Source of the DNA: a virus
DNA length: 20,832 nt
Virus record (IMG/VR): IMGVR_UViG_3300044619_002120
Span: 1 to 20,832 of that record
Reading direction: 5' to 3' (one strand)
The notes under the pieces were generated by a model. The model was not told the origin of the DNA. It made no database searches and saw only the letters and a program-made list of their open reading frames with translations. This document shows positions 633 through 16,980 of this stretch, in pieces. Each line of letters starts with the position of its first letter. Within the stretch, counting starts at the first letter, position 1. A program made the position numbers and the translations under genes.

Positions 633-693
633 GTCGGTGTCTCCGTTTGCGTTGTTGATGACCTCTTCTCTCACATGCAACGCACCGTTGCAA
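633..693 (-). promoter_or_regulatory. Leftward promoter/leader, class I copy
   Basis: Read on the minus strand: TTGCAA (693-688), 7 bases, TTGCAT (680-675), then GAGAAGAGGTCATCAACAAC and CGGAGACACC before the ATG at 632. Spacing from TTGCAA to CATCARCAAC is 33 bases, identical to the rightward copy at 988. No convincing -10 hexamer sits at the usual distance, so calling it a promoter is inference from the repeated architecture. The conserved leader itself is seen directly. Confidence 0.55.
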
Positions 694-987: not shown

Positions 988-1049
988 TTGCAACCCCACG
1001 TTGGATATGAGAGAAGAGGTCATCAGCAACGACCAACCGGAGACACCCA
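988..1049 (+). promoter_or_regulatory. Rightward promoter/leader, class I copy
   Basis: TTGCAA (988-993), 7 bases, TTGGAT (1001-1006), then GAGAAGAGGTCATCAGCAAC (1011-1030) and CGGAGACACCC before the ATG at 1050. It is an inverted, near-identical counterpart of the leader at 633-693. The GGAG at 1039-1042 is the ribosome binding site. As in the leftward copy, no standard -10 hexamer is obvious 17 bases after TTGCAA. Confidence 0.55.
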
Positions 1050-4200: not shown

Positions 4201-6237
4201 ATGGCGAGCGTCAGGGCGATTGCGCCCAAAATCCGCGCCCTTGAGGTGCCGGAGGAACTGCGGATGGTGCCGGCATGGCTCATCTGGCGCTTCGAACAAT
4301 ACCCCAACGAATCCAAGCCGCGCAAAGTCCCGTACTGGACCGACGGCACGATCCGCCACGGTCAGCAGGGTTCACCGACCGACCGCGCACGCCTGACCAC
4401 GTTCCCCGCAGCGCGCGATGCGGCTGCGCGCATGGGCTATGACGGCGTGGGCTTCGCCCCGATGCCAGACTTCGGCTACACGTTTCTGGACTTTGACAAC
4501 TGCGTTGGCCCGAGCGGCGAGATACCCACTGAGATCGAGCAGATCGTCGCCCGGACGTATGCCGAGTTCAGCCCATCGGGTAAAGGCATCCGCGCCGCGT
4601 TGAAGGGCAATCTGGGCAACCACAAGAGCAAGGCAGCGCCCGACCGCTACGGCTTTGAGACGTTCTCTACGTCAATGTTCGTGACGTTCACGGGCAACAT
4701 CCTCCCCGCCTGCGAGATGATCGGTCTTGAGAACACGGTGGCCGAGGTGGACCAGCACGTCATCGACCTGTGCGAGCGCCGCTTCGGTGGCTCCCTCACC
4801 AACAACGTCGTTGACCCCGACGACTTCATGGCCGGCCGCGAGCCTCGGCTGGGCCTGACGATCAACGAGATGGAGGCGCTGGTCAACAGCCTCGACCCGA
4901 GCATGGGTCGCGCGGACTGGATCCGCGTCGGCATGGCGCTGAAGCATGAGACGGACGGCGGTGACGACGGCTTCGAAATCTGGGACGAGTGGTCACAGGA
5001 CGGGGACACGTACCCCGGCACCGAGGCTCTGCGCTACCAGTGGGAGAGCTTCCGAGCTGCACCGGGCAAGCGGCAGACTACCATGGCCTCGGTGATCAAG
5101 ATGGCGAAGGACGCCCAGAGCCGCCCTAGCTCGGCGGCGAGCGTGGCCGAGGCGGCCGACGCACTCGTCGCTGATCTGGATGCACCCGAGGGCGTGCACA
5201 CGCCACCCGGCTACACCGGCAAGTTCCCTGTCCTGTCGGCCGACGAGATCAGCTCGCAGAGGCCGACAGACTGGCTGATCAAGGGCGTACTCCCAGCCGC
5301 CGACATCATCACGATCTACGGCGCGTCTGGCTCAGGCAAGAGCTTCGTCGTCCTTGATCTAGCCGCCGCTATCGCCACCGGCGCGCCGTGGCGCGGCTGC
5401 AAGGCGCGCAAGGGCCGCGTGGTCATCATCGCCGCCGAGGGCGCGGGCGGCTACGGCAAACGCATCAAGGCGCTGGCGCAGCACCGGGGCATCCCGTTGG
5501 CCGATCTCGACATTGGCGTGATCGTCGTGCCGCCCAACCTCATGGAGGAGGGCGACGTGACTGAACTGGCCGCGTCGATCAAGGCCGTGGGGGACGTGTC
5601 GTTTGTCGTGGTGGATACATTCGCGCAGGTGACGCCGGGAGCCAATGAAAACACGGGCGAAGACATGGGCCGCGCTCTGGCCAACGTGCGCGTACTGAGC
5701 GACGTGACGGACGCAACGGTCGGTCTCGTACACCACTCAGGCAAAGACGCCAGCAAAGGCGCTCGCGGCTGGTCGGGCATCAAGGCCGCCATGGACGCCG
5801 AGATTGAGATCACGCGCGATGAGAACACGGGCGCACGCGCCATCCGGCTGAGCAAGATGAAAGACGGCGAGGATGGAACGACATGGGGCTTTAAGCTGGA
5901 GACGATCCTGCTCGGCCTCGACGACGACGGTGACGACATCACGAGCTGCGTTGCGGTCGAGGATGACGTGCGCCCGGCGGCTGTTGAGGACAAGAAAAAC
6001 GTGAAGCGTCGCGGCCGCCTTGAGACCCACCTGCTGGAGGTAATGGCGACATTCCCGACGGATGCAATTGTTCGCGCGGAGGACCTGATCCGCAAGGCTT
6101 GCGATATGTTACCAGCGCCCGATGCAGGCAAACGTGACATCCGCCGCCAGTCAGTTGTCCGGGCAATTCAGAACCTTAGCAGGGAGAAGGACGGCCCACT
6201 GCGGATGGAAAACGGGATCGTAATTTTTTACGAATAG
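4201..6237 (+). CDS. Primase-polymerase / RepA-like helicase
   Basis: A 678-residue multidomain replication protein. The ATG at 4201 is preferred over an in-frame GTG at 4186, because GGAGG at 4188-4192 is then the ribosome binding site. N-terminal part: primase-polymerase-like, with an acidic motif FLDFDN (95-100) and EFSPSGKGIR (122-131). Middle (about 220-295): a PriCT-2-like helical domain (ADWIRVGMALKHE...WDEWSQ). C-terminal: RecA-type ATPase of the RepA helicase family with Walker A GASGSGKS (374-381), Walker B FVVVDTF (about 466-472) and LVHHSGKDASKGARGWSG. It should make primers and unwind DNA at the phage fork. Several similar phage proteins fuse these activities. A separate primase or DnaB-type helicase is not seen in the window. 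Confidence 0.9.
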   Translation: MASVRAIAPKIRALEVPEELRMVPAWLIWRFEQYPNESKPRKVPYWTDGTIRHGQQGSPTDRARLTTFPAARDAAARMGYDGVGFAPMPDFGYTFLDFDNCVGPSGEIPTEIEQIVARTYAEFSPSGKGIRAALKGNLGNHKSKAAPDRYGFETFSTSMFVTFTGNILPACEMIGLENTVAEVDQHVIDLCERRFGGSLTNNVVDPDDFMAGREPRLGLTINEMEALVNSLDPSMGRADWIRVGMALKHETDGGDDGFEIWDEWSQDGDTYPGTEALRYQWESFRAAPGKRQTTMASVIKMAKDAQSRPSSAASVAEAADALVADLDAPEGVHTPPGYTGKFPVLSADEISSQRPTDWLIKGVLPAADIITIYGASGSGKSFVVLDLAAAIATGAPWRGCKARKGRVVIIAAEGAGGYGKRIKALAQHRGIPLADLDIGVIVVPPNLMEEGDVTELAASIKAVGDVSFVVVDTFAQVTPGANENTGEDMGRALANVRVLSDVTDATVGLVHHSGKDASKGARGWSGIKAAMDAEIEITRDENTGARAIRLSKMKDGEDGTTWGFKLETILLGLDDDGDDITSCVAVEDDVRPAAVEDKKNVKRRGRLETHLLEVMATFPTDAIVRAEDLIRKACDMLPAPDAGKRDIRRQSVVRAIQNLSREKDGPLRMENGIVIFYE

Positions 6238-6242
6238 GGGGC

Positions 6243-6301
6243 TTGCAATGTGAGATTGATAAGTCCATATGGTGTGTATCAGCAACCCAAGGAGAGACCC
6301 A
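6243..6301 (+). promoter_or_regulatory. Promoter/leader, class II copy
   Basis: TTGCAA (6243-6248), exactly 17 bases, CATATG (6266-6271), then GTGTATCAGCAAC (6274-6286) and AAGGAGAGACCC before the ATG at 6302. TTGATA at 6256 occupies the second-box position. The copy at 12360 has the same -35/-10 spacing and leader, and both are preceded by A/T-rich sequence and GGGGG. The pattern fits a sigma70-like promoter with start near the ATCAGCAAC segment; the start site is inferred. Confidence 0.7.
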
Positions 6302-6616
6302 ATGGCTACCCAGCCCAACACCATCGACCTCGCCGCCTCGGTCGTAGACCGCCTCGGCAACATCAAGGCCCAGATCGCCGAACTGAAGGCGGTCGAGGCC
6401 AACCTGATCGCGCTCATCGTCAACATGGGCGACACTGCCATTGACGGCAGCCTGTTCCGCGCCACGGTGTCGGAAGTGGCCGAGCGCCAGTCGCTCGACG
6501 CCAAGGCCGCCGAAGCCAAGCTCCGCGAGCTGGGCGTGGACGGCCGCTGGTTCAGCAAGAACCAGAAGGTCAGCAAGGGCTACACGACCGTCAAGGTCGT
6601 GGCGCGCAAGGCCTGA
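6302..6616 (+). CDS. Conserved small phage protein of unknown function
   Basis: A 104-residue protein. The ATG at 6302 follows AAGGAGAGACCCA; an in-frame ATG at 6269 lies inside the promoter and is rejected. The N-terminal half is a helix (DRLGNIKAQIAELKAVEANLIALIV), followed by DGSLFRATVSEVAERQSLDAKAAEAKLRELG and a strand-like end (TTVKVVARKA). This layout is seen in short proteins of many proteobacterial phages, usually near replication genes, without a known role. As the first gene after a strong candidate promoter it heads the cluster that runs to the GapR-like gene. Confidence 0.75.
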   Translation: MATQPNTIDLAASVVDRLGNIKAQIAELKAVEANLIALIVNMGDTAIDGSLFRATVSEVAERQSLDAKAAEAKLRELGVDGRWFSKNQKVSKGYTTVKVVARKA

Positions 6617-9193: not shown

Positions 9194-9444
9194 GCGGGGA
9201 GGGCCACAACAGCGCAGGCGAGCAACTGCGCCTCCTGATCGAGCGCATCGAGACGCTCGAAGAGGAGAAGAAGGGCGTCGCGGGTGACATCAAGGACATA
9301 TACACCGAGGCCAAGGCCCGTGGGTATGATGGCAAGATACTTCGCGAGATCGTCCGCATCCGCAAGATGGCTCAAGACGACAGGGATGAGCACTTCGCCG
9401 TGCTCAGCACCTACGCCAAGGCTATTGGCATGGACCTCCTGTAG
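9190..9444 (+). CDS. GapR-like DUF2312 protein
   Basis: An 84-residue protein starting at a GTG within a GTGA overlap (MSGEGHNSAGEQLRLLIERIETLEEEKKGV...). It has the DUF2312 signature: GEGHNS at the start, a helix rich in EEEK, DIKDIYTEAKARGYDGKILREIVRIRK and a C-terminal helix. In Caulobacter the family member GapR is an essential chromosome-associated protein that binds overtwisted DNA ahead of forks and stimulates topoisomerases. A phage copy may relieve supercoiling during phage replication, or interfere with host GapR. The family is largely alphaproteobacterial, which supports the host assignment. Confidence 0.9.
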   Translation: MSGEGHNSAGEQLRLLIERIETLEEEKKGVAGDIKDIYTEAKARGYDGKILREIVRIRKMAQDDRDEHFAVLSTYAKAIGMDLL

Positions 9445-9453
9445 GTCTATATA
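9425..9453 (+). promoter_or_regulatory. Candidate sigma70-like promoter before the DNA polymerase gene
   Basis: TTGGCA (9425-9430), 17 bases, TATATA (9448-9453). Spacing and hexamers are close to consensus. It lies over the end of the GapR-like gene and the start of the structured gap. If used, transcripts would begin near 9460, within the first hairpin, so the second hairpin would be near the RNA 5' end. Confidence 0.4.
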
Positions 9454-9456
9454 ACG

Positions 9457-9497
9457 GGCGTGCCTGCCCTGTTGACCCCCAGTGGGGCAGGCACGCC
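9457..9497 (+). terminator. Strong 13-base-pair hairpin, terminator-like
   Basis: GGCGTGCCTGCCC (9457-9469) and GGGCAGGCACGCC (9485-9497) pair perfectly around a 15-base loop, 12 bases after the GapR-like stop. There is no T-run after it (only TCTGTTCT), so termination may be partial or factor-dependent. The arms are far longer than chance would give. Confidence 0.6.
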
Positions 9498-9577
9498 TCT
9501 GTTCTGGTGAGCCGCGCGTGGGTGCGGGTCTCCTCGCGTTGCTGATACACGAAGCGCGCGGCTCTCCCGAACAGAGG
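9496..9577 (+). promoter_or_regulatory. Long hairpin enclosing the DNA polymerase ribosome binding site
   Basis: The arms at 9496-9518 (CCTCTGTTC, 4 bases, GAGCCGCGCG) and 9555-9577 (CGCGCGGCTC, 4 bases, GAACAGAGG) form a 23-position stem with only two mismatches and a 36-base loop. GAGG at 9574-9577, the polymerase ribosome binding site, lies in the 3' arm and would be masked when the hairpin is folded. The polymerase ATG is 5 bases past the stem. The loop holds GTTGCTGATACAC (9538-9550), an inverted copy of the leader used elsewhere in the genome. Confidence 0.65.
9526..9550 (-). repeat. Inverted copy of the phage mRNA leader
   Basis: On the minus strand this reads GTGTATCAGCAAC, then GCG and AGGAGACCC. 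The leader at 6274-6300 reads GTGTATCAGCAAC, then CCA and AGGAGAGACCC; the first 13 bases are identical there and at 12391-12403. No TTGCAA box sits at the matching distance upstream, and no minus-strand open frame of useful length follows, so it does not look like a working minus-strand gene start. Confidence 0.75.
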
Positions 9578-9582
9578 ACATC

Positions 9583-11541
9583 ATGAGCACACTGTACCTC
9601 GATCTCGAAACATTCTGCGAAACCAAGATCACCTACGGCGCGTACCGCTATGCGGAGGACGCCGAGGTGCTGTTGGTGGCGTGGGCGTGGGACGACGAGC
9701 CCGTTAGCGTCTGGGACACGCAGGACATGCCGCGCTGGCGTGATGCGCTCCAGATGATGATCGACACCGCAGATCGCATCGTGATCCACAACAGCAACTT
9801 CGACCGCACCGTCCTGCGCGAGCAGCGCGTCCACATCCCCGTGGAGAAGATCGCCGACACCATGGTGCTGGCCCTGCAGCACAGCCTGCCCGGCTCGCTG
9901 GGCCAGCTCTGCGACGTGCTGCACGTGCCGCAGGACAAAGCTAAAGACAAAGCCGGCAAGAAGCTGATACACCTGTTTACGAAGCCAAGGGCCAGCAACG
10001 TGAAGGTACGGAGAGCCACCCGTGACACACACCCCGCCGAGTGGGATGCCTTCGTCGAATACGCCCGGCTGGATGTGGACGCAATGCGAGACGTACTTGG
10101 ACGACTGCCGCCTTGGAACAATTGTGATCATGAGCGGCACCTGTGGCGGTGTGACCAAGGAATTAACGACCGTGGCGTTGCCGTGGATACTGTTTTCGCC
10201 CGAGCTGCTCTTCGAGCTTTCGACCGAGCTGGACGATCTCTGGCCACTCGTGCCTCCGCTCTGACGGGCGGCAGCGTCACGTCCGCCACGCAGCGCCAGC
10301 GCCTGCTCGACCACCTCAAGGACGCTCACGGCTTCGAGACCGAGGACCTGACGCGCGCCACGCTCGGCAACCTGCTCGGCGGTGACCTCGATCCGCAGGT
10401 GCGCGAGCTGCTGGAGATACGGCAGCAGGCTGCCGCCACGAGCCCGGCCAAGTACAGCGTGCTGCTCAACGCCACGAACCGAGACGGCCGCCTGCGCGGC
10501 CTGATCCAGTTCTGCGGCGCGGCGCGCACTGGGCGCGATGCCGGCCGCCTGTTCCAGCCGCAGAACCTGCCGCGCAGCCCCGACTGGTTCGACGATGACG
10601 TGCAGGCGATCACGGTCGCGGCCATGAAGGCGGACTGTGAGCACCTGATTTGGGACAACATCAGCGAGCGCTGCGCGTTCGCCGTGCGCGGGGCGCTGGT
10701 CGCCCCTGAGGGCAAGAAGCTGGTCATCGCCGACCTGTCCAACATTGAGGGGCGCGTCTTGGCGTGGCTGGCCGGCGAGGACTGGAAGGTCGCGGCGTTC
10801 AAGGCCTATGACCGGGGCGAGGGGCACGACCTGTACAAGGTCACCGCCGGCCGCATCCTCGGCAAGGACCCCGGCGACATCACCAAGGCCGAGCGGCAAC
10901 TGCAGGGTAAGGTGCCCGAGTTGGCCGGCGGCTATCAGGGCGGCGTGGGCGCATACCGGGTGATGGGCGGGAAGGTGTTCGACGCGATGACGGACGAGGC
11001 CATCCAAGAAATCGTCTCGGCGTGGCGCAAGGCGCACCCGCGCACGCGCAACCTGTGGTACGACATGGAGGCGGCCGCGCGGTCAGCCATCAACAATCTG
11101 GGCGAGAGCTTCGGCGACCGGATCATATTCGACGTGAAGCCCGACGCGCAGGGCATCGCGTGGCTGCGGATGAAGCTGCCGAGTGGCCGCTACCTGTGCT
11201 ACCCGCGCCCGGAGGTGTCGGACAGCGGCAGCCTGAGCTACGAGGGCATCAACCAGTACACGCGCAAGTGGCAGCGCCTCGACACCTACGGCGGCAAGCT
11301 GGTCGAGAATGCCGTGCAGGCCATCGCCCGCGACGTGTTCATGTCCGGCATGCTGCGCGCCGAGGAGGCCGGCTACAGCGTCTGCATTCGCGTGCACGAC
11401 GAGCTGGTCTGCGAGACGCCGGACGAGCCGGCCTACACCAGCGAGGGGCTGGCCGCGCTCATGTCCACCAATCCGGGCTGGTCGGTCGGCCTGCCGCTTG
11501 CCGCCGCCGGGTTCGAGGCGTACCGTTACCGCAAGGACTGA
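9583..11541 (+). CDS. Family A DNA polymerase with 3'-5' exonuclease
   Basis: A 652-residue phage-type polymerase. The exonuclease domain has motif I DLET (D7, E9), motif II NSNFD (D74) and motif III Y160-x3-D164 (YARLD). The polymerase domain has motif A DLSNIEGR (D384, E389), an O-helix-like motif B with R438, K443 and Y451 (ERQLQGKVPELAGGYQGG), and motif C HDE (605-607). All key residues are present, so it should be a proofreading replicative enzyme. No 5'-3' exonuclease domain is present, as is usual in phage versions. The ATG at 9583 follows GAGGA. Expression may be controlled by the hairpin at 9496-9577. Confidence 0.95.
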   Translation: MSTLYLDLETFCETKITYGAYRYAEDAEVLLVAWAWDDEPVSVWDTQDMPRWRDALQMMIDTADRIVIHNSNFDRTVLREQRVHIPVEKIADTMVLALQHSLPGSLGQLCDVLHVPQDKAKDKAGKKLIHLFTKPRASNVKVRRATRDTHPAEWDAFVEYARLDVDAMRDVLGRLPPWNNCDHERHLWRCDQGINDRGVAVDTVFARAALRAFDRAGRSLATRASALTGGSVTSATQRQRLLDHLKDAHGFETEDLTRATLGNLLGGDLDPQVRELLEIRQQAAATSPAKYSVLLNATNRDGRLRGLIQFCGAARTGRDAGRLFQPQNLPRSPDWFDDDVQAITVAAMKADCEHLIWDNISERCAFAVRGALVAPEGKKLVIADLSNIEGRVLAWLAGEDWKVAAFKAYDRGEGHDLYKVTAGRILGKDPGDITKAERQLQGKVPELAGGYQGGVGAYRVMGGKVFDAMTDEAIQEIVSAWRKAHPRTRNLWYDMEAAARSAINNLGESFGDRIIFDVKPDAQGIAWLRMKLPSGRYLCYPRPEVSDSGSLSYEGINQYTRKWQRLDTYGGKLVENAVQAIARDVFMSGMLRAEEAGYSVCIRVHDELVCETPDEPAYTSEGLAALMSTNPGWSVGLPLAAAGFEAYRYRKD

Positions 11542-12079: not shown

Positions 12080-12372
12080 CGCCCGCAGGCAAGCTGCAGG
12101 AGCACCTGAAGCGCGTCGTCCAGAAGAGTGGCGGGCAATACCGCAAGGCGCGCTGGGAAGGCCGCAGGGGCTGCCCTGACTGCTTCATCTGGTGGGAGTG
12201 GCCGCGCGCCGCCTTCATCGAGATCAAGGCCGACGGCGACCGGCTCAGCGGCCACCAGCAGCGCGAGATCGAGCGCATGCGCGGCGACGGCGTCCCGGTC
12301 TTCATCGCCCGTTCGATTGAGGAGATCGACGAGATTGTAAAAAAAGTTCGGGAGGGGGGTTGCAATGCCTGA
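12076..12372 (+). CDS. VRR-NUC domain nuclease
   Basis: A 98-residue protein matching the small phage VRR-NUC type of PD-(D/E)XK nuclease. Key residues: E9 in the first helix, GCPD (32-35, catalytic D35), E49-I50-K51 (IEIK) and Q61 (SGHQQ), then DGVPVFIARSIEEIDEIV. The GTG at 12076 within a GTGA overlap, with GAGGAG just upstream, is preferred to a GTG at 12058. Related proteins cut branched or flap DNA and usually lie between polymerase and SNF2-type helicase genes, as here. Its 3' end overlaps the promoter at 12360. Confidence 0.88.
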   Translation: MTPAGKLQEHLKRVVQKSGGQYRKARWEGRRGCPDCFIWWEWPRAAFIEIKADGDRLSGHQQREIERMRGDGVPVFIARSIEEIDEIVKKVREGGCNA

Positions 12373-12422
12373 TTGCATGCGCCATATGCTGTGTATCAGC
12401 AACGCAAACAGGAGTTACCCAA
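12360..12422 (+). promoter_or_regulatory. Promoter/leader, class II copy
   Basis: TTGCAA (12360-12365), 17 bases, CATATG (12383-12388), then GTGTATCAGCAAC (12391-12403), CAGGAGTTACCCA and the ATG at 12423. TTGCAT at 12373 forms the second box, 13 bases from the first. Apart from the 17-base spacer it is nearly the same as the element at 6243, including a preceding A-run and GGGGGG. It starts inside the end of the VRR-NUC gene. Confidence 0.7.
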
Positions 12423-12653
12423 ATGTTCGATTATCGCAACGAAGACGCCGAGTACGAGTTTAACGCTCGTTACGATTACGTTCGCGAAGCCTACGGCGAC
12501 ACGGCTGAGTTTAACAAGGGCGAAGCCTATTACGATTATCTCGACGAGTGCGCTTACGAGGGCGTTGAGCCTCTGGGTCGCGCTGCTTGGGAAGCCGATT
12601 GCGCCGCTCGCGCACTTCCGTCTTACGACGACGAAGCTGATTTTCCGTTTTAA
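12423..12653 (+). CDS. Very acidic small protein
   Basis: A 76-residue protein (MFDYRNEDAEYEFNARYDYVREAYGDTAEFN...). It has 21 Asp/Glu against about 6 Lys/Arg and many Tyr residues, giving a strongly negative charge along its length. The ATG at 12423 follows CAGGAGTTACCC; upstream in-frame starts lie within the promoter. Codon use differs from neighbours (more GAT, TAT, CGT and other lower-GC choices). The composition recalls small DNA-mimic proteins that block host DNA-binding enzymes, but composition alone proves nothing. A dedicated promoter suggests a need for high or timed expression. Confidence 0.75.
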   Translation: MFDYRNEDAEYEFNARYDYVREAYGDTAEFNKGEAYYDYLDECAYEGVEPLGRAAWEADCAARALPSYDDEADFPF

Positions 12654-14835: not shown

Positions 14836-16024
14836 GCCGCAAAACGTCTTCGGTGATTATGGTGCTTTGCGGCTTCATCTGAAACGCGCGCAACGGCGAC
14901 GCCACGCCTTTCTTGACCCCAACCGGGAAGTCAAAAGGCGTGGTGTAGCCGTATTGCTTCATCAATTCGGGAAAGAGCGACAGCGCGCCGAGGCCGCTTT
15001 CCTCAAGAACGGCGCGACCTTCACCGGGGACACCAGAACGATACGACGGGTGTTTGCTGTCCGACACGCCAAACCTCGTATCAATCTCGCCGAGGTTCCG
15101 CAGCGAAAGCAACGGGGCACCGATTTGCTCGAGGTCGGTTGTCCCGTAGACCGCTTCGCCTGTGCCAAGACCGCCTCGCTCGCGGTACTTGTCCAACAGT
15201 TTGTTCAACTGGCCGCGCGCTTTGCCTCTGGCGCGCATGAATGTCTGGTAGCCCTCGGGGTCTTCAAACCCCCGCCAGTCGGGCAAAACAGCCTTGATGT
15301 CACTCGCCAGCGCGGCTTTCTGCGGCACGTCGAGAGCTGCATCGGCATAAGCGTACTGCAGGCCGCGCGGCTGATGCGAGAACATGGACGACAGCGGGCC
15401 CATTGACCAAGGCGCAAAGAGCGCGGGCTTGCCGGTCTCGCGCTCAATTTGCCGCGCCAGAGCAAGGTGGGCTTCTGCGTTTGCCTTGTCCGCCGCCCAC
15501 ACCTCGCCGGGGTTCTCAAACATGAAGCCTTGGCCGCCCTGCCGCGAGAACGGGCGATCAAGGCGCACGTCGTTTACGGCAAGGACATCGTCGCCCGCAG
15601 CCGAAAGATCTGACATTGACGTGAGAATGCCGCGACCCTCTAAATCGTAAATGCTTTCGACCGGGGGCTTCTCGATGGCGCGCGGCTGAATTTCCAGCTC
15701 CAGATCGCGGATTTTCTGCTGTTCTTTTTTCCGCTTCTCAATGCGCGGATCGGTCGCCACCTGCGCCGGCTTTACGGTGTAAGCCGATGGGCGCGGCGGC
15801 GCGGCGTTGGGCTTGCCGGCATCCATGAACTTATCGGCCATTGCCTGCCACTCGGCCAGTGGCGCGTTGCGGTCAACGTACCCGGCTACGCGGCGCGCCA
15901 TCTCTGGGCCGTACTCCCGATCAATCAAAGTCGCCGGATTAATCGGCGCAGCGACCTTTGCCGCAGCCTTCTTGGTCGCGGCCTTCTTGACCCCCTTCAC
16001 CGCCAGTTTGCTGACAATGCCCAT
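14792..16024 (-). CDS. Probable internal virion protein with shared N-terminal tag
   Basis: A 410-residue protein. Residues 1-25 (MGIVSKLAVKGVKKAATKKA...) are lysine/alanine-rich and nearly repeat the start of the next gene upstream (16024-16977). A charged helical linker follows (RIEKRKKEQQKIRDLELEI). The main domain has SIYDLEGRGILTSMSDLSAAGDDVLAVNDVRLDRPFSRQGGQGF, PGEVWAADKANAEAHL and GKPALFAPWSMGP; similar blocks occur in large multi-domain virion proteins of marine and alphaproteobacterial podoviruses. No enzyme motif recognised. It is coupled by TAATG to the gene before it and is the last gene of the minus-strand block in this window. Confidence 0.75.
   Translation of the reverse strand: MGIVSKLAVKGVKKAATKKAAAKVAAPINPATLIDREYGPEMARRVAGYVDRNAPLAEWQAMADKFMDAGKPNAAPPRPSAYTVKPAQVATDPRIEKRKKEQQKIRDLELEIQPRAIEKPPVESIYDLEGRGILTSMSDLSAAGDDVLAVNDVRLDRPFSRQGGQGFMFENPGEVWAADKANAEAHLALARQIERETGKPALFAPWSMGPLSSMFSHQPRGLQYAYADAALDVPQKAALASDIKAVLPDWRGFEDPEGYQTFMRARGKARGQLNKLLDKYRERGGLGTGEAVYGTTDLEQIGAPLLSLRNLGEIDTRFGVSDSKHPSYRSGVPGEGRAVLEESGLGALSLFPELMKQYGYTTPFDFPVGVKKGVASPLRAFQMKPQSTIITEDVLRLIDDLRVKGLDKPS
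14798..14839. terminator. Inverted repeat at the convergent gene junction
   Basis: CGGCTTATC (14798-14806) and GATAAGCCG (14831-14839) pair perfectly around a 24-base loop, exactly where the plus- and minus-strand modules meet and overlap. There is no T-run on either side, so it is at best a weak bidirectional terminator or a block to opposing polymerases. Confidence 0.35.
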
Positions 16025-16027
16025 TAC
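15991..16027 (-). repeat. Repeated gene start, copy 1
   Basis: Thirty-seven bases covering the TAATG junction and the first codons of the 410-residue virion gene. They match 16944-16980 with one mismatch (position 16018 against 16971). The protein encoded is MGxVSKLAVKG. Similarity continues weakly for about ten more bases into each gene. Confidence 0.85.
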
Positions 16028-16977
16028 ACTCGGCCTCCGACCGCAAACTCTCGCATGGCTTTAACAACGTCGCTGTGCGTCGTAACCTCGTCGCCAGCTT
16101 TGTCCCAAATAGAATGATGGGCGAGGTGCTGGTAGTACGGATCGAGTTCCGGCGGCAGCTTCAGCCTGAGAGCTTTCTGGCGTGCCGACAGACGCTCGAC
16201 GCCTTCAACGCCGCCAGCACCGCCCTTGCGGGCTAGATACGGCGACGCTTCGCGCGTCGGCCGGCCGGTGTTGAGGATTATCTGCCGCGCGTCCAGCGTC
16301 GGCTGGTCACCGCGCCCGATGAGCGACGCCAGAAAGCCGGACTTGCTCGGGCCGACGCCCCGGATGTCTTTAGTGAACACACGCCAATCTGCCGGCGGGC
16401 TGGCCTGCTCGCGCGCTGCGGCGATGAGATCAGAGGCCTGCCCCTCGCGGCCGGGCAGGTTCTGCGCCGCCCACTGCAGCGCGTCCTGCAGGTCGTTGTG
16501 CTTCCCGAAGGGGCGCATCCCTGTCACCGCGTCGGCGACAGCGCGCTCATCGATCCGGCCGCGCTGCGCGGCGTCGAGATACGATTGCCCAGCCGGCGTG
16601 CCCAGCCACTCGCTGAACGCGCCTTCCGGGCGCACTTTGCCCGACACGCCTTCTGGTAGCTGCAGCCCGGCCTTTCGCAGCAGCTCGGCTTCAGCAGCGC
16701 GGCGCTGGATGCTGGAGCGCGTGACGGTGAAGGCCTTGATGATATCGCGCGCCGACAGGCCGCCGGATGCGGCACGGCCCGCCTGCTCGGCCATGAAGCG
16801 GCCGAAGTCGAGCACGTGCTCTGGAACGGACGAGAGACCGCCCAGTGCCTCTTGCACTTCCGCCAGCGGCCGCCACTGCCAATCGTTGATTACACGGGCG
16901 GGCGGGTCAGCGTAAGGCGCGGCTTTTTTGGCGGCCTTCGTCGCCCCCTTCACCGCCAGTTTGCTGACAACGCCCAT
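16024..16977 (-). CDS. Probable virion protein with HhH-GPD-like motif
   Basis: A 317-residue protein starting MGVVSKLAVKGATKAAKKAA, the same tag as the gene that follows it. The middle has ARDIIKAFTVTRSSIQRRAAEAELL. At 204-229 it has DIRGVGPSKSGFLASLIG...PTLDARQ, which has the look of a helix-hairpin-helix of the DNA glycosylase (HhH-GPD) type: G-V-G-P-x-K hairpin followed about 20 residues later by a conserved Asp (D229). It ends LPPELDPYYQHLAHHSIWDKA. The flanking genes and TAATG coupling place it with virion or ejection proteins. Whether it has glycosylase activity or only a DNA-binding fold is open. Confidence 0.72.
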   Translation of the reverse strand: MGVVSKLAVKGATKAAKKAAPYADPPARVINDWQWRPLAEVQEALGGLSSVPEHVLDFGRFMAEQAGRAASGGLSARDIIKAFTVTRSSIQRRAAEAELLRKAGLQLPEGVSGKVRPEGAFSEWLGTPAGQSYLDAAQRGRIDERAVADAVTGMRPFGKHNDLQDALQWAAQNLPGREGQASDLIAAAREQASPPADWRVFTKDIRGVGPSKSGFLASLIGRGDQPTLDARQIILNTGRPTREASPYLARKGGAGGVEGVERLSARQKALRLKLPPELDPYYQHLAHHSIWDKAGDEVTTHSDVVKAMREFAVGGRV

Positions 16978-16980
16978 TAC
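16944..16980 (-). repeat. Repeated gene start, copy 2
   Basis: The matching copy of the repeat at 15991-16027, at the TAATG junction and start of the 317-residue gene. Near-identity at third codon positions points to recent copying or gene conversion rather than protein-level convergence. Confidence 0.85.

Follow-up and report, generated by a model that had tools for sequence, protein, structure and literature searches.

The window analyzed here, the whole stretch of viral DNA examined, is 20,832 bases long and comprises its entire IMG/VR source record. From left to right it encodes a primase-helicase, an exonuclease, a Gp2.5-like single-stranded DNA-binding/annealing protein, a GapR-like protein, a family A DNA polymerase, a VRR nuclease, and a helicase. 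Ahead of the polymerase gene lies a structured leader, whose parts are as follows.

9425-9453, plus strand: predicted polymerase-operon promoter (-35 TTGGCA at 9425-9430, 17 bp, -10 TATATA at 9448-9453), with TTGGCN-17-TATANN recurring in relatives
9457-9497, plus strand: hairpin 1, GGCGTGCCTGCCC / GGGCAGGCACGCC, located at the transcript's predicted 5' terminus and sharing its final two bases with P1; read from the sequence, with equivalent hairpins of different stems in relatives
9496-9504, plus strand: 5' strand of P1, CCTCTGTTC, pairing with 9569-9577; compensatory changes
9509-9518, plus strand: 5' strand of P2, GAGCCGCGCG, pairing with 9555-9564; compensatory changes
9524-9537, plus strand: P3, a small apical hairpin (GCGGG-TCTC-CTCGC) that holds the anti-Shine-Dalgarno bases CTCC/TCCT; 77.7% of cells paired, double changes in four of five pairs
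9538-9550, plus strand: J3/2, the single-stranded anti-tag segment GTTGCTGATACAC, with conserved core GTTGCTGAT at 9538-9546; mostly unpaired in the predicted fold, complementary to the tag and covarying with tags
9555-9564, plus strand: 3' strand of P2, CGCGCGGCTC; compensatory changes
9569-9577, plus strand: 3' strand of P1, GAACAGAGG, including the polymerase Shine-Dalgarno (SD) sequence AGAGGA at 9573-9578; compensatory changes and the unpaired probability of the SD
9583-11541, plus strand: DNA polymerase (family A; Pfam DNA_pol_A, PHROG 17), its ribosome binding site (RBS) buried by P1

The predicted +1 of the polymerase operon falls near 9460, within the 5' arm of hairpin 1, and the leader RNA probably starts at the conserved TTGGCN-17-TATANN promoter, which stands directly upstream of hairpin 1 in most relatives. 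The conserved C-terminal codons (A-L/I-G-M/L-D-L) of the GapR-like gene just upstream contain the predicted -35 (TTGGCN), and the 17-bp spacing is retained in most relatives, so conservation of this -35 may be partly coding; a consensus promoter scan did not pick this promoter up. Hairpin 1 was considered as a terminator and rejected, since the tail that follows it is only pyrimidine rich and a terminator scan found none there. Because that scan also found no U-tract terminator 3' of the main hairpin, a stable small RNA would need processing. In the predicted fold the polymerase SD (AGAGG) has an unpaired probability of 0.00 to 0.01, and the RNA segment GUUGCUGAU (J3/2), between P3 and P2, is single stranded. 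The 36-base loop described in an earlier, sequence-only reading of this DNA lies exactly at 9519-9554.

A nine-base tag in other mRNA leaders

The sequence-only reading had claimed that 13 bases of this loop are exactly complementary to two other leaders, and they are: GTTGCTGATACAC at 9538-9550 on the plus strand is the reverse complement of both 6274-6286 and 12391-12403. A search for it with up to two mismatches returned four matches against 0.18 expected, a number never reached in 100 shuffles, and an independent repeat finder paired 6274-6295 with 9529-9550 (22 nt, 91%). We also recovered the reported 9-base match at 1022-1030, where ATCAGCAAC is present, and the pairing of 23 of 25 loop bases with the 6274 leader around a 2-base bulge, which resolves into 13 + 1 + 9 pairs with AGGAG pairing to CTCCT. 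The length of the exact match, however, is partly fortuitous, and the conserved element is only the nine bases ATCAGCAAC, hereafter the tag. The GTGT preceding it falls 5' of the predicted +1, and in relatives this stretch does not follow the loop; of 58 leaders, 13 match the loop of their own phage at base -1 to the tag, a frequency of 0.22 compared to 0.23 for the loops of other phages. Since the leaders are complementary to the loop no farther than the predicted +1, the 13-mer of the window is probably the 9-mer plus four bases matching by chance. The promoters and tags of the other leaders in the window, the tags read from the sequence, are listed below.

6243-6271, plus strand: predicted recombination-operon promoter, TTGCAA-17-CATATG, its -35 at a spacing equivalent to that at 57 of 67 distinct tag sites
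6278-6286, plus strand: tag ATCAGCAAC, the predicted first 9 nt of the recombination-operon mRNA, followed by SD AGGAG at 6290-6294 and ATG at 6302
12360-12388, plus strand: predicted promoter, TTGCAA-17-CATATG, of a downstream operon (small genes, then the helicase), with the same tag-promoter spacing
12395-12403, plus strand: tag ATCAGCAAC, followed by SD AGGAG and ATG at 12423
1022-1030, plus strand: tag ATCAGCAAC before the leftmost operon, which leads to the primase-helicase, followed by SD GGAG and ATG at 1050
651-659, minus strand: tag variant ATCAACAAC before a divergent minus-strand gene (ATG at 632), with one mismatch to the window's loop

The identified genes of these tagged operons are replication and recombination genes. 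Record-wide, ATCAGCAAC occurs in several copies per phage and the reversed pattern is almost absent. The -35 of a TTGCAA-17-N6 promoter starts 33 to 36 nt upstream of the tag at the 57 of 67 sites, and because most copies have this spacing, the tag is predicted to form the first nine nucleotides of the mRNA, with an SD and a start codon following. The flanks of the leaders diverge while the tag is invariant within each phage.

Repeats of several kinds occur in the window. The repeat finder showed that the promoter-leader cassettes at 6236-6290 and 12353-12407 are 78% alike, and in the divergent promoter region at 650-1031, 54-nt inverted promoter-leader copies (80%) surround a segment in which TGCAGCA/TGCTGCA repeats are frequent and which may be an operator region. 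Farther right, a 50-nt direct repeat, 92% identical, lies at 15978-16027 and 16931-16980, at the borders of consecutive minus-strand open reading frames (ORFs).

Conservation of the hairpin and concerted change of loop and tags

Scans of IMG/VR for polymerase relatives yielded a few hundred loci, in which we counted more than 50 different versions of the hairpin; a pattern scan of the same database for GTGTATCAGCAAC returned genuine relatives together with many unrelated matches. More than 50 related phage sequences have the hairpin ahead of their polymerase operon, its outer stem burying the operon's SD. Across 44 aligned phage sequences, 97.2% of the P1/P2 cells are paired, and both-sided (double compensatory) changes occur in 17 of the 21 P1/P2 stem pairs. 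The covariation score of the whole structure was 0.389, compared to 0.176 for shuffled alignments and at most 0.129 with the partner strand slid, and RNAalifold, unprompted, returned the same main stems. As in a translational operator that sequesters an SD, the polymerase-operon SD is held in the conserved stem in every aligned relative. A covariance model search found one hairpin per record and also recovered three contigs outside the training set (L458, L405, and L461).

The hairpin heads the polymerase operon, either just before the polymerase or before a gene for a 97- to 99-amino-acid (aa) helix-turn-helix (HTH)-like protein or another preceding gene. The 97- to 99-aa protein, with the C-terminal sequence GRVSEILHGKR, lies between hairpin and polymerase in six loci (L007, L010, L021, L097, L103, and L142); it looks like a DNA-binding protein, and the copy in L097 belongs to PHROG 23243, whose function PHROG gives as unknown. 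In two others (L004 and L017) the hairpin is followed by a different, 214-aa gene that is nuclease-like by eye. One polymerase gene (L023, 5957-8883), with a tblastn match of 2883 nt, exceeds those of its relatives by about 300 codons, which may be an intein or other insertion.

The element is absent from polymerase relatives, bacterial and viral, at about 52% identity or less. A scan of bacterial genomes returned no prophage with it, and the one close match (L305) showed no hairpin in the 417 bases 5' of its polymerase gene. We found no cultured phage carrying the element, no Rfam family at gathering score in six loci, and no description of a hairpin/tag system of this kind in the open-access literature.

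The sequence-only reading had proposed to look in related phages for leaders that change while the loop does not. Leaders and loop instead change together, across seven loop/tag classes.

Loop GTTGCTGAT with tag ATCAGCAAC: the pair found in the window
Loop TTGCTTGAT with tags ATCAAGCAA: G009, G020, and G021
Loop GTTGTTGGT with tag ACCAACAAC: L235, L236, L238, L243, L246, L249, L252, and L414
Loop GTTGTTGAT with tag ATCAACAAC: L278
Loop GTTGCTGAG with tag CTCAGCAAC: L218, L258, and L266
Loop GTTGCTGAC with tag GTCAGCAAC: L226
The wholly different loop GGTTGTCCC with tag GGGACAACC: L455 to L460

Counting only core 9-mers followed by an SD and an ORF, by exact matching with no wobble scoring, we found 72 own-tag RBS sites in 31 sequences versus 16 sites for tags of other classes in 186 sequence/tag combinations, and several of those 16 are one base off the phage's own tag. 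By these RBS criteria 29 of the 31 sequences have one to six own-tag sites, and L273 and L252 have none. Matching 9-mers from the whole loop (29 nt) to all RBS windows was rejected as too noisy (92 own sites, compared to 31 on average and 65 at most in shuffles; 64 in the sense orientation): GC-rich anti-SD words match everywhere and the window's loop was mislocated in it, which leaves the core 9-mer test as the clean one. On a maximum-likelihood polymerase tree, 10 labels (tag classes plus unassigned rows) require at least 10 changes, and the ATCAGCAAC class is not one clade. Because the sequences are related, the class is the proper unit of counting, and the seven classes imply at least six concerted replacements of loop and tag. 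A degenerate member (L461) has loop GTTGCTGGT and carries ACCAGCAA(C) at or just inside three start codons (2530, 5450, and 16097; one as GGAGACCAGCAACATG); it may represent an eighth class, one whose tags fall within the beginning of the coding sequence. For the loops of L253, L229, and L405, no tag site was found in the available sequence, two of these being short contigs.

In relatives the tag stands beside many more start codons than the sequence-only reading had listed. As for a trans-acting small RNA, one seed matches several unlinked mRNAs per genome. A few copies are intercistronic, overlap the stop codon of the upstream gene, and have no promoter (G001:35673 and G004:24201). The GGGACAACC clade has its tag right at the RBS, and a recognizable promoter precedes only one of the four copies there. 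The RBS of the polymerase operon is itself tagged in many relatives, where the tag is internal to the mRNA and the match is longer than the 9-mer, and it co-changes with the loop beyond the 9-mer (GATAC with GTATCAGC, GATAAC with GTTATCAGC, and GATCC with GGATCAGC). Other relatives, like the window, have an untagged polymerase RBS and keep the tag in the remaining leaders. The loop motif is always on the unpaired, antisense strand of the compensated RNA stem.

Predicted action of the leader and alternative explanations

Seed pairing has a calculated energy of about -9 to -16 kcal/mol (-11.7 kcal/mol for one), and the extended loop-leader duplexes in the window, which cover the target SD, reach about -27 to -31 kcal/mol; opening the loop costs 6.9 kcal/mol, and P1 and P2 remain folded at -42.3 kcal/mol with the entire loop held open. 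Cofolding of hairpin and leader gave fortuitous external pairings only, in a model that excludes pseudoknot-like loop contacts. We consider it probable that the polymerase leader is a structured antisense RNA that represses the other replication operons in trans, in the manner of the c4 RNA discussed below; the fold, the buried SD, the tags, and their joint change with the loop are what the comparison shows, and pairing in the cell, repression, and the predicted transcript are what we infer from it. The leader, about 9460-9580, would keep P1 and P2 folded and the polymerase SD buried, and J3/2 (GUUGCUGAU) would serve as the seed for AUCAGCAAC, the 9-nt tag with which the phage's other replication and recombination mRNAs begin. 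The duplex would then spread through the apical hairpin, whose CUCC would cover the GGAG of the target and block translation of the tagged mRNAs. Where the polymerase RBS is tagged, as in many relatives, other copies of the RNA could provide autoregulation. The acting form may be the intact mRNA leader or a processed fragment of about 115 nt.

The sequence-only reading had proposed a trans RNA switch in which pairing silences the other mRNAs, opens the polymerase hairpin, or both. The co-change of loop and leaders in seven classes speaks for such a switch, and silencing is the half that fits better, since pairing covers the SD of the targets, although the effect is a prediction. Repression of the tagged mRNAs is the simplest outcome because P1 and P2 stay folded while the duplex covers the target SD. 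Opening of the polymerase hairpin fits poorly: neither arm of the inner stem finds complementary sequence in the tags, and the only structure that pairing can displace is therefore P3, the small hairpin at the apex. For the same reason we regard as unlikely a control running in the opposite direction, in which early tagged mRNAs bind the loop, help to open the SD stem, and so activate translation of the polymerase in the manner of a loop-initiated toehold switch. The loop is accessible and, with the SD buried in every aligned relative, something must free it, but with P1 and P2 still folded when the loop is open, pairing alone would not do so, and the conserved anti-SD of the loop would be needless.

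Promoter linkage bears on a further alternative, that the 9-mer is a site for a phage DNA-binding protein, placed at promoters and inverted in the hairpin, and that loop and tag change together when the specificity of the protein alters. The near-fixed spacing of 57 of 67 tag sites from a promoter and the DNA-binding-like protein encoded right after the hairpin in several relatives are in keeping with this, and since so many tags follow one promoter type, there is some probability that the tag acts at the DNA level where transcription starts. Promoter-free RBS tags, in one clade and at a few intercistronic sites, nevertheless favor RNA pairing; the RNA stem is kept with wobble pairs and compensation around a motif that is always unpaired and antisense, complementarity ends at +1, and the polymerase RBS tracks the loop beyond the 9-mer, all of which makes a DNA site as the full explanation distinctly unlikely. 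The co-change of RBS tag and loop in many relatives could also mean that the loop pairs only in cis with the RBS of its own operon, through an alternative fold or pseudoknot, and that the match to other leaders is secondary. This we judge very improbable, as the window and other relatives keep leader tags with the polymerase RBS untagged. A cis pseudoknot was rejected on geometry: once the 21 pairs of P1 and P2 have formed, the linker of a few nucleotides from P1 to the tag would be too short to reach J3/2. The remnant of an inverted leader copy, which the sequence-only reading had named as the rival to its switch, would be neutral, with the leaders homogenized by duplication of cassettes. The repeated promoter-leader cassettes suit it, but it explains neither the seven co-changing classes nor the compensated stems, and leader flanks diverge around a tag that stays invariant within a phage; we give it almost no credence.

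Relation to known systems and implications

Among known systems, the hairpin and tags would work most like the c4 RNA of phages P1 and P7, an antisense RNA with complementary sequences in its loops that pairs around an RBS and blocks translation (PMC12197685). The likeness lies in a loop sequence complementary to the RBS region of its target. One RNA here matches several operons in trans, in contrast to c4, and its own stem hides the SD of a DNA-polymerase operon; it also heads that operon and has replication and recombination targets, whereas c4 targets an antirepressor in immunity. Even at E values up to 10, the c4 family was absent from the Rfam matches. c4 RNA is cut from the transcript that it regulates, and a tagged polymerase RBS would allow comparable processing from a regulated transcript here. 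The CI RNA of satellite P4 presumably belongs with c4 as the closest known system. Trans-encoded bacterial small RNAs share with this leader a short accessible seed, several RBS-adjacent targets, and a genomic location distinct from them; in contrast, the RNA here is an mRNA leader, its targets belong to its own phage, and they share a single exact tag that varies together with the seed.

Phages T4 and RB69 have an autoregulatory DNA-polymerase hairpin at the gene 43 RBS, and there too a hairpin adjoins the RBS of a phage DNA-polymerase gene; the loop described here, however, matches other mRNAs, and the first gene after it is sometimes a small HTH-like or other gene rather than the polymerase. 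By polymerase, the closest cultured phages are Caulobacter phages RW, KcrB, RLK, and GB2A (58%). The gap before the polymerase gene of phage RW holds two hairpins, the second of which buries the SD (L515, 11900-12010), but its loop is tiny, no anti-tag loop of this kind was seen, and the covariance model search did not match this leader. The two-hairpin leader of RW is perhaps the ancestral form, and a cultivable one.

To our knowledge, phage antisense RNAs mostly act on one neighboring target. The patterns in these genomes point to an undescribed RNA-to-RNA control system, and we lean toward viewing it as a phage-wide RNA barcode: nine shared nucleotides at the 5' end or RBS of replication mRNAs, read by one polymerase-operon RNA that would set all of them together, with concerted change at least six times giving orthogonal codes in related phages. 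Such codes would perhaps avoid cross-talk in co-infected cells. A single structured leader appears to coordinate replication operons throughout a lineage of phages, and in several of its branches the compensatory-mutation experiment has already been run by evolution. The natural seed/tag pairs would offer a ready-made set of orthogonal RNA regulators, and covarying RNA-RNA target networks of this kind can be found from phage metagenomes alone.
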